64,000 nt of DNA from Anaerohalosphaera lusitana (GTDB lineage: Bacteria > Planctomycetota > Phycisphaerae > Sedimentisphaerales > Anaerohalosphaeraceae), in assembly GCF_002007645.1 (NCBI RefSeq), contig NZ_CP019791.1, forward strand, positions 3,712,593 through 3,776,592, given 5' to 3'. This document shows, piece after piece, positions 49,164 through 53,839 of the stretch. A program made the translations under genes and the position numbers. Numbering within the stretch: position 1 is the stretch's first letter; each line of letters opens with the position of its first letter. The notes beneath the pieces were generated by a model. The model was not told the DNA's origin, made no database searches, and worked only from the letters and a program-made list of their open reading frames with translations.

Positions 49164-50717
49164 GTGCGGATACCTTTTCTGAACAATCGAAAGAAAAAGG
49201 GCAAGCGGGCCCCCGGCCGCAAAGATATGGAGCGGCAGGTCCGCCAGGCCGTGCAGCGGTATTACGAGGTGGCAGCCAGCAACGCACAGACGATCAAATC
49301 CTTTGGCACCGCCCAGGCGGGCGACCCCAACGACTGGCTCAGCGACGATGTGCAGACGCTGAGGGCACGCGCGAGCTACGAGATCCGCCACAACGGTTAT
49401 GCAAAGGGCATGACGCGGACGCGGGCGAACGACCTGATCGGGACGAGGCCGAGACTGCAGTTTCGCAGCGGCAACGCCAAATTCGACGAGGCGGTCGAGC
49501 GTGAATGGGCACTGTGGGCGGGCACGAGTGACAACCCAGTGTGGGGAGTCGGCTATTGCGACGCCGAGGGCACCAAGTCGCTGAGCGATATATTAAAAAT
49601 TGCCTGCGCACGCCACCAGGACGACAGCGGCGACGGCTACATCATAATGACACGCGAGAGGCGAGGACCGGGCAACTGGCGGCAGCGAGGCGACCGGGGC
49701 GTGCGGCTGCGTCTGAGGCTGGTCCATCCGGATCGGATAATGACGCCCTGGGGAGTCGACGACGACAGCGTAAAGGACGGCATCGAGTACGACGCGAACG
49801 GCCGACCCGCCTATTACTACGTGATGAAGGAACACCCCAACTCCGCGACGGCGGATCTGGTGGGCAAGTACGAAAAGATCCCGGCAAAGTACGTGCTGCA
49901 CTATTTCGAATTCGAATACGCCGACCAGGCGCACGGCGAGCCGAGAATCACGCCGTCTCTGTGGACGTGGAACAAGATGCGGAGGTACACCGAGGCTGTG
50001 GTGGGCTCTGCGGAGCTGGCGGCGTGCCTGGCGGGGATCATCACCGGCGATTCCGACCCGGACGACGACGAGGTGCTCGATTGGGACACAGTGGAGATCG
50101 TCAAGAACGCACTGATGACCGTGCCCGGAGGCGGCGACATCCACCAGTTCAAGGCCGAGCAGCCCACAGGCACATACAAGGAGTTCAAGGCCGAGCTGCT
50201 CAATGAGGCGGCAAGGCCGTCGAACATGCCCTACAACGTCGCTGCGGGCAATTCCAGCGGCTACAACTACTCATCGGGGAGGCTCGACAAGCAGGAATAT
50301 CAGAAGGACACCGCCAACGAACGCCACGGCGTGGAGACGAGGATCCTGGCTGCGATCGCCGCCGAATGGCTCCGCGAGGCGATGCTGATACCCGGATTTC
50401 TGCCTTCCGCCCCGCCGGAGGTGCTGCGTAACGCACGCGGCGGCTGGTACTGGGACGGTGTGGGCCACGTGGATCCGCAAAAAGAGGCGAACGCGCAGGA
50501 AACCCGCCTGCACAGGAGCAAGGTGTCAAACTTCGCGGACGAATGCGCCAAGGACGGCAAGGACTGGCAGCAGGTGATGATCCAGCGGGCGAAGGAAAAG
50601 GAATTTGCCGAGAGTCTCGGGCTCAATTACGAGCAGGCGGCGGTCGCGGATATGCCGCCGCAGAATGGCAATGATGACCAGGACGATGATGACGAGGACG
50701 AAGACGATGAGCAATAA
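49164..50717 (+). CDS. Portal protein, lambda gpB family (GTG start)
   Basis: 517 residues from GTG at 49164; longer frames to the left overlap gpW. SNAQTIKSFG, DVQTLRARASYEIRHNGYAKGMTRTRANDLIGTRPRL and HYFEFEYADQAHGEPRITPSL are typical of lambda-type portals. Twelve copies form the DNA entrance ring at one vertex. The C-terminus is a strongly acidic tail (DDQDDDDEDEDD) that contains the ribosome site and start of the next gene. Confidence 0.9.
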   Translation: MRIPFLNNRKKKGKRAPGRKDMERQVRQAVQRYYEVAASNAQTIKSFGTAQAGDPNDWLSDDVQTLRARASYEIRHNGYAKGMTRTRANDLIGTRPRLQFRSGNAKFDEAVEREWALWAGTSDNPVWGVGYCDAEGTKSLSDILKIACARHQDDSGDGYIIMTRERRGPGNWRQRGDRGVRLRLRLVHPDRIMTPWGVDDDSVKDGIEYDANGRPAYYYVMKEHPNSATADLVGKYEKIPAKYVLHYFEFEYADQAHGEPRITPSLWTWNKMRRYTEAVVGSAELAACLAGIITGDSDPDDDEVLDWDTVEIVKNALMTVPGGGDIHQFKAEQPTGTYKEFKAELLNEAARPSNMPYNVAAGNSSGYNYSSGRLDKQEYQKDTANERHGVETRILAAIAAEWLREAMLIPGFLPSAPPEVLRNARGGWYWDGVGHVDPQKEANAQETRLHRSKVSNFADECAKDGKDWQQVMIQRAKEKEFAESLGLNYEQAAVADMPPQNGNDDQDDDDEDEDDEQ

Positions 50718-52992
50718 AAATCGCAAGAAACGCCGGAGCAAGGGACGCAAGCGGGTGATCGAGCAGCTCCGCAGCGAGAACGCACAGCTCAAGAATACTC
50801 CGGACGACGAGAAGCTCGCCGAGGAGATGCAGCAGCGGAACCTGACCACGCGGCAGTTTTCGGTTCGAGCGCAGACACTGGACGAGAAGGAACGGACGGT
50901 CGAGGCGGTGATCGCCACCGAGGAGCGGGTAGTGGTGCTGGACTGGCGTCGGTGGGAGCCGATCGAGGAGATACTGCGGATGGACGGGGTGGTTCTGCCC
51001 GACAGCCGGCAGGTGCCGATGTTCGACACTCACATGCGTTGGGGCGGCACGGCGTCGGTAATGGGCAGCACACGCGACATACACGTAGAGGGCGGCAAGC
51101 TGGTCGGGACGAATCACTTTTCGAGCAGGCAGGCCAGCGAAGAGGCGTGGACGCTCGTCAGAGAGGGACATCTGACGGACAACAGCATCGGATACCGGGT
51201 GCTGGATTACGAAAAGATCGAGCCGGGCGAGACCGCGACCATCGGCGGCAGAAAATACACCGCATCGCCGAAGATGGCGCTTCGCGTGGCGACCGAGTGG
51301 GAGGTGATCGAAAACAGCATCTGCCCGATCGGAGCGGACCGCACCGCCAAGAATCGCGGTGATCAACATACAGAGCAGGACAGGAAGCCAAATCAAAAAC
51401 AAAACCAAAACCATTTTCAAGTTCACAAAAAGCAGGAGAAACGAACCATGAAGTTCAATGAATGGCTGAAAGAGAGAGGGTTCGACCCGGAAACGATCAG
51501 CGAAGAGCAGCGAGCCAGCCTCGAAGAGCTCTACAAAGCTGAGCAGAGCCGGAGCGAACCGGAAACGGAACCGAAGACGAAGACGAAGAAAAAGACCGAG
51601 CCCGAGCAAGGCAGCCGGTCGGCAGGCGAGGACCCCGCGGCCATGCGCGAGGCGATCAAGGCCGAGATGGAGGCGGTTCGCGAACAAGAGCGCGCCGAGC
51701 GTGCCAGGGTCGACGAGCAGATCAGAAAGCTCGGCGAAGAGGTCGGCATCGAGCAGTCGCTGATAGACGATGCGATCCACGGCGGCAAGACCGTCGAGGG
51801 CGCACAGCGGTATTTTCTCGAAAAGATCCGCAGCGACCGACCGGAGGTAGGATCCGCACCGGCGATCATCAGCCGCGACAACACGGTCAACCGCGAGGTG
51901 ATCGAGGATGCGATGCTGCTGCGTGCCGGGTACGAAGATCAGGTGGTCGAAGACAGCAACGGCGAAAAGCGTGCCGACAAGGCCGATCGCTTCCGCGATA
52001 TGTCGGTGCTGGAGATCGCTCGTCAGTCGCTTCGCATGGCCGGTCAGCCGGTGCCCTACGGTACCGAAGAGGTCATTCGGGCGGCGTTCGAGATGGACAT
52101 GCGGGGATTCTCGAATTACTCGCTTTCGACGATGCTCGGCAACGTCGCCAACAAGTCGCTGCTCCGCGGCTACGAGCTGGTCAAAAAGACCTGGCAGGCG
52201 TGGTGCACGACCGGCAGCGTGAGCGACTTCAAAGAAGTCACGAGAAATCGCTTCACCCTCCAGGACGGCTTCCAGGAGGTCAAGAACGGCGGCAGGATCG
52301 ATCACACCACCGCGACCGAAGAGGCCGAGAAGTACAGCATCACGACCTACGCGCAGATGTTCGCGATTACCCGAAACGACATCATCAACGACGACCTGAA
52401 TCAGTTCACGAAGGTCCCGATGCACATGGGTCGAGACGCCGGTCTGCTCGCGGGCAAGCTGGTCTACGCAATTCTCACCGGCAACCCGAAGATGGGCGAC
52501 GGCAAGAGCCTGTTCGTCAGCGGCCACAGCAACCTCAACACCTCGACCGGCCTGACGATGGACAACCTCAAGAGCTCGATCACGACTTTTGAGAAGCAGA
52601 CGGACAAGGGCAGCAGAAACATCCGCCTGAGCCCGAAGTACATCATCGTGCCGTCGGCACTGTACTGGACGGCCAAGGAGCTGCTGCAGTCGACGCTGAT
52701 CGTCGCCACCGGCAGCACCGACGCGGTCAAGGGCAACAAGAACGTGGTCGCGGGCGAGGTCGAGCCGATCAAGGAACCGATCCTCAACGACGACTCGGCC
52801 ACCACCTGGTATCTGGCGGCGGATCCGAGCGAGGCCGACACCGTAGAGGTCGCTTACCTCAACGGCAAGCAGACGCCTACGGTCGAAAAGTTCCCGATGA
52901 CGCCGGACGTGCTGGGCGTGCAGTATCGGGCGTATCTCGACGTCGGTGCCAAGGCTCTCGACTGGCGGACGCTTCAGAAGAACACCGCGTAA
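50707..52992 (+). CDS. Prohead protease-major capsid fusion
   Basis: 761 residues starting 11 bases before the portal stop. Residues about 45-225 match the prohead protease of HK97-like (S78) type, with His109 in FDTHMRW and Ser160 in LTDNSIGYRV, and VIENSICPIGAD closing the domain. Residues about 230-400 are a charged coiled-coil region, probably the scaffold (EAIKAEMEAVREQERAERARVDEQI). Residues about 405-761 match the Mu gpT-like major head protein (VIEDAMLLRAGY, ITRNDIINDDLNQF). An internal start at 51448 could make scaffold-capsid alone. Confidence 0.85.
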   Translation: MSNKNRKKRRSKGRKRVIEQLRSENAQLKNTPDDEKLAEEMQQRNLTTRQFSVRAQTLDEKERTVEAVIATEERVVVLDWRRWEPIEEILRMDGVVLPDSRQVPMFDTHMRWGGTASVMGSTRDIHVEGGKLVGTNHFSSRQASEEAWTLVREGHLTDNSIGYRVLDYEKIEPGETATIGGRKYTASPKMALRVATEWEVIENSICPIGADRTAKNRGDQHTEQDRKPNQKQNQNHFQVHKKQEKRTMKFNEWLKERGFDPETISEEQRASLEELYKAEQSRSEPETEPKTKTKKKTEPEQGSRSAGEDPAAMREAIKAEMEAVREQERAERARVDEQIRKLGEEVGIEQSLIDDAIHGGKTVEGAQRYFLEKIRSDRPEVGSAPAIISRDNTVNREVIEDAMLLRAGYEDQVVEDSNGEKRADKADRFRDMSVLEIARQSLRMAGQPVPYGTEEVIRAAFEMDMRGFSNYSLSTMLGNVANKSLLRGYELVKKTWQAWCTTGSVSDFKEVTRNRFTLQDGFQEVKNGGRIDHTTATEEAEKYSITTYAQMFAITRNDIINDDLNQFTKVPMHMGRDAGLLAGKLVYAILTGNPKMGDGKSLFVSGHSNLNTSTGLTMDNLKSSITTFEKQTDKGSRNIRLSPKYIIVPSALYWTAKELLQSTLIVATGSTDAVKGNKNVVAGEVEPIKEPILNDDSATTWYLAADPSEADTVEVAYLNGKQTPTVEKFPMTPDVLGVQYRAYLDVGAKALDWRTLQKNTA
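51434..51450 (+). promoter_or_regulatory. Internal ribosome site and start in the protease-capsid gene
   Basis: AGGAG (51434-51438), nine bases, then in-frame ATG at 51448-51450, opening MKFNEWLKERGFDPETIS. That is a natural N-terminus, and it follows a low-complexity linker (NQKQNQNHFQVHKKQEKR). Use would produce a 514-residue scaffold-capsid protein. Lambda C/Nu3 uses the same trick. Confidence 0.6.
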
Positions 52993-53101
52993 ACCGGTTA
53001 GCAAGATAACGCTGCGGCGGGCGGGCTGATGCTCGACCCGCGGCGGCCTTGTTTTGAGCGGATAAAACAAATTGCAAATCAGATTTTGATGGAGAATAAA
53101 A

Positions 53102-53839
53102 ATGGAACTCGAATCGATTTTTAAACTAGGTTACGGCCGGCTCGACTACACCGCCGGCGGCGACGGCGCCACCAGCGGCCAGGTCGTGCAGGTAGCGGGC
53201 AAGGCCGGTGTCGTGACGCGTGATCTCGACGACAGCGAGGCCGGTTACGCGGACGTTGAAGGCATATTCCAGATACGTGCGGCGGCCGTAGTCGGCAATG
53301 CAGGCGACAACGCCTGGTGGGACGAAGACGGCGACCCCTACGGCGACAGCGACAACGCCGGTAAAGGCGCACTGACCACGATCGCCAGCGACGGCGATTT
53401 CTGGGTGGGCACGCTCGTCGAGGACCTTGCGGCCACAGACGGCGAGGTAAAAGTAGCTCTCAACGTCGAAACGCCCGGTCTGCCCGCGTGGACAGGCAAG
53501 ACGCACGAGACCAAGGACGACGACTACACCGTCGACGCACAGGACAACGGCAAGGTGCTGCACATCGCCACCGACGCCAAGACGTTCACGCTGCCGGCGA
53601 CATCCGCGGGCTTTGAGATCACGTTCGTCAACGACGGCGCTGATGCCGTCGTCGAGCTGACGGTGAGCCCGAACGCCAACGACAAGATCACCGGAGTCGA
53701 CCTGGCGGGCGCAGACAACAAGGATATCGTCAACACCAAGGCGACCGCCGAACACGGCGACTTTATCACCCTGGTGGGCAACGGCGGCGACGGCTGGTAC
53801 ATCAAGGCGATCCGCGGCACCTGGGCACTCGAGACCTAG
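53102..53839 (+). CDS. Capsid decoration protein with DUF2190-like N-half
   Basis: 245 residues. The first part (about 20-120: GQVVQVAGKAGVVTRDLDDSEAG, IFQIRAAAVV) resembles the DUF2190 beta-barrel found next to capsid genes. The second (about 130-245: DDDYTVDAQDNGKVLHI to GDGWYIKAIRGTWALET) is a beta-rich module often seen at the end of decoration or fibre proteins. It probably stabilises the capsid surface. A GGAG ribosome site is present. It lies 109 bases behind the capsid gene. Confidence 0.7.
   Translation: MELESIFKLGYGRLDYTAGGDGATSGQVVQVAGKAGVVTRDLDDSEAGYADVEGIFQIRAAAVVGNAGDNAWWDEDGDPYGDSDNAGKGALTTIASDGDFWVGTLVEDLAATDGEVKVALNVETPGLPAWTGKTHETKDDDYTVDAQDNGKVLHIATDAKTFTLPATSAGFEITFVNDGADAVVELTVSPNANDKITGVDLAGADNKDIVNTKATAEHGDFITLVGNGGDGWYIKAIRGTWALET

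Follow-up and report, generated by a model that had tools for sequence, protein, structure and literature searches.

Genes that hold a prohead protease, a scaffold and a capsid protein in one reading frame are already known (the NCBIfam families NF045541 and NF045540, Gifsy-2, phage MD8), the tripartite capsid gene of Gifsy-2 having reportedly been described by Effantin in 2010. In the annotation of lambda, an in-frame start within the protease-scaffold gene C, that of Nu3, gives a scaffold without protease, and the capsid protein E is encoded by a separate gene. One paper proposes all three functions for a single gene of Pseudomonas phage MD8, gp5, and assigns the HK97 protease to a gene of its own (PMC8508860). 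The gene considered here lies in a window of 64,000 nucleotides of Anaerohalosphaera lusitana (contig NZ_CP019791.1, positions 3,712,593 to 3,776,592 of the forward strand), where a single open frame of 761 residues at 50707-52992 (+) contains protease, scaffold and capsid and, just after the protease, a second possible start. The reading that we favor, with a probability of roughly 0.8 and judging from the sequence, is that of one gene with two in-frame starts, the full-length and the scaffold-capsid products of which would co-assemble, in such a way that the long form limits the dose of protease.

The AGGAG and in-frame ATG at 51434-51450, noted in the original prediction, are confirmed, and exceed what chance would give in Shine-Dalgarno (SD) energy, in low RNA structure and in the rarity of AGGAG. 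Among the 26 ATGs inside the open frame (22 of them in frame) the one at 51448 ranks second for SD energy; an RNA folding energy above -5 kcal/mol is found only there (-4.6) and at 50707 (-4.3), the next best ATG having -6.0; and across the window an AGGAG at positions -15 to -5 precedes only 23 of 1829 ATGs. The guanine-cytosine (GC) content dips to 35-42% over 51350-51469, as it does at the start of the next gene near 53060-53119. At the protein level, M248 borders the disordered linker (208-245) and stands right ahead of a folded element, the two helices of residues 250-282.

The searches for relatives gave 274 usable loci, 245 of them with one frame across protease and capsid; the remaining 29 are loci cut by a contig edge, fused to another protease, holding the capsid only or interrupted by a stop elsewhere, and four that are split at the junction. 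Clustering below 60% identity left 101 non-redundant loci. In 79 of these it was possible to locate where the protease ends, and 77 of the 79 have an in-frame ATG 7-60 residues past that point. This first post-protease ATG is preceded by an SD core in 62 of the 77, compared with 109 of the 1021 remaining in-frame ATGs in these genes (Fisher 1e-40) and 115 of 984 out-of-frame ones, and its median SD duplex energy is -6.9 versus -2.1 for other ATGs. The core 4-mers cluster at offsets -14 to -8 and are almost absent at other offsets; they do so in all three registers and in 27 amino-acid contexts. When the upstream codons were resampled synonymously, 34.2 cores were obtained (standard deviation 3.1, maximum 44 in 500 runs) against the 62 observed. 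That homologues might lack the internal site, which the original prediction had named as fatal to it, is not what was found: within a window of 53 codons after the protease, 71 of the 79 relatives have some in-frame ATG with an SD core, compared with 8.6% of equal windows elsewhere in these genes. With redundant loci included, 208 of all 241 motif-bearing loci have an ATG with the core, and 219 when ATG, GTG or TTG are counted (control windows for the three codons together, 23%). The site is retained among distant proteins, only 25-47% identical to that of the window. A chance SD-ATG is rejected on three comparisons, with other ATGs, with synonymously reshuffled codons and with windows slid along the genes.

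Of the 22 non-redundant loci outside this count, two are cut by a contig edge (L033, L296), three are split at the junction (L118, L245, L281), one has a stop inside the scaffold (L167), two hold only the capsid (L297, L269) and fourteen are fusions. In nine of these fourteen (L098, L102, L271, L286, L273, L233, L275, L095, L080) an ATG with an SD core or a good SD energy lies near the junction, L278 has a GTG there, and no clear site was found near it in L096, L261, L092 and L103.

A further line of evidence is the synonymous constraint at the site, the ranks being descriptive, as the sequences within each set are related. For the ClpP-type fusions a frame was obtained from 79 of 80 loci, 74 of the sequences being distinct, and the minimum of 7-codon synonymous diversity in the whole gene falls on the SD segment (0.109; gene mean 0.41), with the first glutamate codon, which forms the SD, being GAG in 74/74, the ATG present in 74/74, and the 12 codons around it ranking 2 of 570 windows. 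The peptide KRxEEFxxMP is itself conserved in this type, so that the site in individually read ClpP-type genes would not by itself be proof. In the Pseudomonas S78-type set 60 of 81 loci gave a fused open frame by a first anchor and a second anchor left 18 distinct sequences, the rest being dropped; GAGGAA and the ATG are kept in 18/18 while neighboring residues vary, and the seven codons ahead of the ATG rank 13 of 599. Conservation of the protein as the cause is rejected, since the register of the site and the amino acids encoded there differ among relatives, and synonymous change is at its lowest at the site. It could be argued that only the full-length protein is made, the ATG and its AGGAG being coincidental or a relic of genes that were formerly separate, and that proteolysis alone yields the capsid; the frame fused in 245 of 274 loci, and the relatives without an internal site, are consistent with this. 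A relic would decay, however, yet the site persists at 25-47% identity through changes of register and amino acids, and in ClpP-type genes it is the very minimum of synonymous diversity, which makes this explanation very unlikely.

Natural splits mark the same boundary. In four loci the scaffold-capsid part is a gene of its own, beginning at the position that matches the internal start: in L118 (Desulforhopalus singaporensis) and L122 (Desulfobulbaceae) the protease frame is closed by a stop, and an ATG with AGGAG/AAGGAG ahead of it opens the scaffold-capsid gene; in L245 the two genes share the bases ATGA, in which the capsid start and the protease stop overlap, the new N-terminus MTFEEWLQAKGF being the same element as MKFNEWLKERGF in the window gene; and in L281 a protease of a different type ends upstream and the scaffold-capsid gene begins at an AGGAG-ATG. 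Taken with the GC content and RNA structure of the junction, which resemble those of a real gene start, these four loci could suggest that only the internal start matters for the capsid, and that the protease is an upstream gene that has lost its stop, the read-through fusion being incidental. Nevertheless, 93 of the 101 non-redundant loci are fused and 3 are split at the junction (the other five being the edge cuts, the stop inside the scaffold and the capsid-only loci), though chance stops would be expected in about half of the linkers, so that an incidental fusion is very unlikely. The linkers, with a median of 18 codons, are stop-free in frame in 77/77, a count qualified by the fact that frame 0 was a condition of their selection, and in 43/77 and 41/77 in the other two frames, while shuffling leaves on average 38.9 of the 77 without a stop. 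An untranslated linker is likewise disfavored by the kept fusion, with the same qualification. The retention of the fusion suggests that the long product is needed, and that of the internal start that the short one is needed; both appear to be under selection. Separately, in L221 (1530-4464, 2491-3925), L167 (1557) and L305 (2776) protease and capsid are in different frames or a stop lies away from the junction, which may be decay, assembly error or another arrangement.

The boundary start is also found with other proteases. The S49-type fusions L098 and L102 carry it, as do fusions whose proteases gave no match in a Pfam search (L271, L275 and L286 with ATG, L278 with GTG); it is present in each of five individually read genes of the ClpP type (CF67a, Ayreon, LLS, Providencia, Gifsy-2), the Met being residue 211 in LLS, and in four phage genes of the S78-like type (RcOceanus, LPPA33, Paenibacillus and, with a weaker site, a Vibrio phage). 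It is rather likely, on this evidence, that tripartite genes of tailed phages yield two products as a rule, with an internal start at the protease boundary that is selected across S78-, ClpP- and S49-type fusions and those with unidentified proteases, and that accordingly belongs to the scaffold-capsid module and survives exchange of the protease; dosage of an encapsulated protease by internal initiation would then be a general design rule of these capsids. As a separate observation, the proteases of L271, L275, L278, L281 and L286 have a motif like D-P-A-A-N-P-x-G-(L/M) near the domain end, and proteases of this kind are fused to the same scaffold-capsid module in four of these loci and are a separate gene in L281.

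Under the two-start reading, ribosomes entering at 50707, beside the portal stop, would make the full protease-scaffold-capsid chain, and those entering at 51448 would make scaffold-capsid without protease, an extra shell protein that is very probably produced. Both forms would be able to co-assemble because the shell-forming C-terminus is common to them, and the few protease domains that the long form carries would reach the procapsid in limited number and so set the ratio of protease to capsid; once the shell is assembled, the protease would cut off both its own domain and the scaffold, with residues 379-395 as the probable zone of cleavage. The short product might instead serve another purpose, for example timing (scaffold-capsid first, protease-bearing chains later) or placement of the protease at the portal vertex, and the overlap of the long-form start with the portal gene would fit local delivery; dosage is the simpler reading, and we regard this alternative as very unlikely. 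With a protease on every capsid subunit, there would be hundreds of proteases inside the procapsid, and a conserved internal start accounts for how a fused gene might escape that outcome. If the two-start reading is true, a virus could build its capsid with protease on some copies only, and a second product is predicted from capsid genes of this kind that are annotated with one; in a wider sense, synonymous constraint can expose nested capsid products.

Several points weigh against the two-start reading: (i) the two products are predictions from sequence; (ii) the SD of the full-length start is itself fair (-5.9 versus -7.4 at the internal start), so that SD strength gives no reading of the relative yields of the two products; (iii) the relatives come partly from one phylum; (iv) 33 of the 241 motif-bearing loci have no ATG with an SD core, and 22 have none of ATG, GTG or TTG with it; (v) the 33 include a Rhodopirellula-like group (L169, L170, L175-L178, L183); and (vi) they also include L040, a second protease-capsid fusion of the same genome, in which no recognizable, usable internal start was found. 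The Rhodopirellula-like group keeps the fusion and seems to have lost the start, which makes of it a natural test case for full-length-only assembly. L040, at 1237000-1244000 of C1 of the host genome (G000), is a frame of 666 residues whose capsid part is about 33% identical to that of the window.

With respect to the parts of the protein, the fusion of protease, scaffold and capsid in one frame, as first proposed, is borne out by the open frame together with profile and fold matches. Both phrog_4523 ("major head and protease protein") and NF045541 (prohead protease/major capsid protein fusion) match the whole protein, the protease part from residues 38/58 onward, and NF045541 is covered over positions 1-632 of 634 (2.6e-140). 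The protein, at 469 bits, misses the curated cut-off of that family (525 bits), and is on this score a relative of NF045541, not a member. This cut-off is passed by 0 of 397 genomes of the same class, despite matches at E <= 1e-20 in 106, and therefore the curated model misses this branch. The full-length structure model has a predicted local distance difference test (pLDDT) of 77.9, and its matches all fell on the capsid part, for which reason the N-terminal 247 residues were folded and searched alone (pLDDT 80.3). This protease model resembles T4 prohead protease gp21 (5jbl; Z 12.4, root-mean-square deviation 2.5 A, 137 residues aligned), well above its matches to herpesvirus proteases (Z 4.3-6.4). 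S78 sequence profiles are weak, the 247 residues scoring 19.1 bits against PF04586, below the gathering score of 21. His109 and Ser160, picked out by the original prediction as protease residues, hold up, being invariant also in a second alignment set (16/16) and set in a gp21-like fold. The predicted long helices at 310-377 agree with the scaffold expected between protease and capsid, and the gpT-like capsid is recovered by PF10124 (1.3e-9), more strongly by PF25209 (1.4e-44, 153.8 bits versus a cut-off of 27) and by the HK97 fold of the model (best Z 15.0). Upstream lies a lambda-type portal gene (PF05136, 8.7e-55) and, farther upstream, a gpA-type terminase is encoded. The same gene is present in an IMG/VR viral contig of 40,802 bases (L003/L185), and because of this it most likely belongs to a prophage of the host genome (4.25 Mb).

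Table 1. Features of the fused gene, in coordinates of the window.
Feature	Position	Strand	Basis or remark
Protease-scaffold-capsid fusion gene, 761 residues	50707..52992	+	NF045541 2.6e-140, phrog_4523 3.2e-137
ATG of full-length product; overlaps final 11 bases of portal frame (stop 50715-50717)	50707..50709	+	SD energy -5.9, little RNA structure
Prohead protease domain, residues 45-206, T4 gp21/herpesvirus-assemblin-like fold	50839..51324	+	Predicted fold; NF045541 and PHROG matches
His109, likely catalytic	51031..51033	+	Invariant in 21/21 aligned rows
Ser160, likely catalytic nucleophile	51184..51186	+	Invariant in 21/21 aligned rows
Linker, residues 208-247, mostly predicted disordered, start-site-like composition	51328..51447	+	pLDDT <50 at 208-245; GC 35-42%
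AGGAG, SD of internal start	51434..51438	+	Nine bases before ATG 51448
Internal ATG, residue 248 (M248), putative start of 514-residue scaffold-capsid product	51448..51450	+	SD, survey of relatives, natural splits
Two-helix N-terminal scaffold element (M-x-F-x-x-W-L-x-x-x-G-F type)	51448..51555	+	Helices 250-256, 266-282; block pLDDT about 87; recurs in relatives
Long-helix scaffold (delta-like) region, residues 310-377	51634..51837	+	Predicted helices 310-346, 350-358, 363-377
Likely maturation cleavage zone, residues 379-395	51841..51891	+	Suggested by pLDDT <50 at 379-392, just before capsid fold
Major capsid protein, residues 396-761, HK97 fold	51892..52989	+	PF25209; fold matches

Among the known systems, that of HK97 gp4/gp5 is similar in that the capsid protein carries the scaffold as an N-terminal domain, which a maturation protease degrades, and differs in its separate protease gene. 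NF045541 and phrog_4523 share the domain order of the window gene over nearly the full length. The fusions of Gifsy-2 and NF045540 share with it the single frame and the same conserved internal SD-ATG, whereas their protease is ClpP-like and that of the window gene is S78/gp21-like; the protease of MD8 gp5 is also described as ClpP-like, and the word "internal" does not occur in that paper's text as far as it was accessible (PMC8508860). In a literature search of titles and abstract openings, with subscription papers mostly outside its reach, no recognizable report of an internal start in tripartite fusions was found. As regards lambda itself, the annotated Nu3 start, codon 239 of gene C (L316), has a poor SD (-2.7), and codon 309, with AGGAGG, has the best energy of any ATG inside the gene (-9.7); the annotation of the Nu3 start may be in error. 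The original comparison with lambda C/Nu3, with the capsid included, is apt: the window gene has an in-frame internal start with an SD after the protease, as in lambda, but its scaffold product would not be free of capsid, as the frame continues through the capsid domain, and capsid would be part of both products. What appears to be new here is the conserved internal start in tripartite genes, that is, the logic of lambda C/Nu3 extended to include the capsid.

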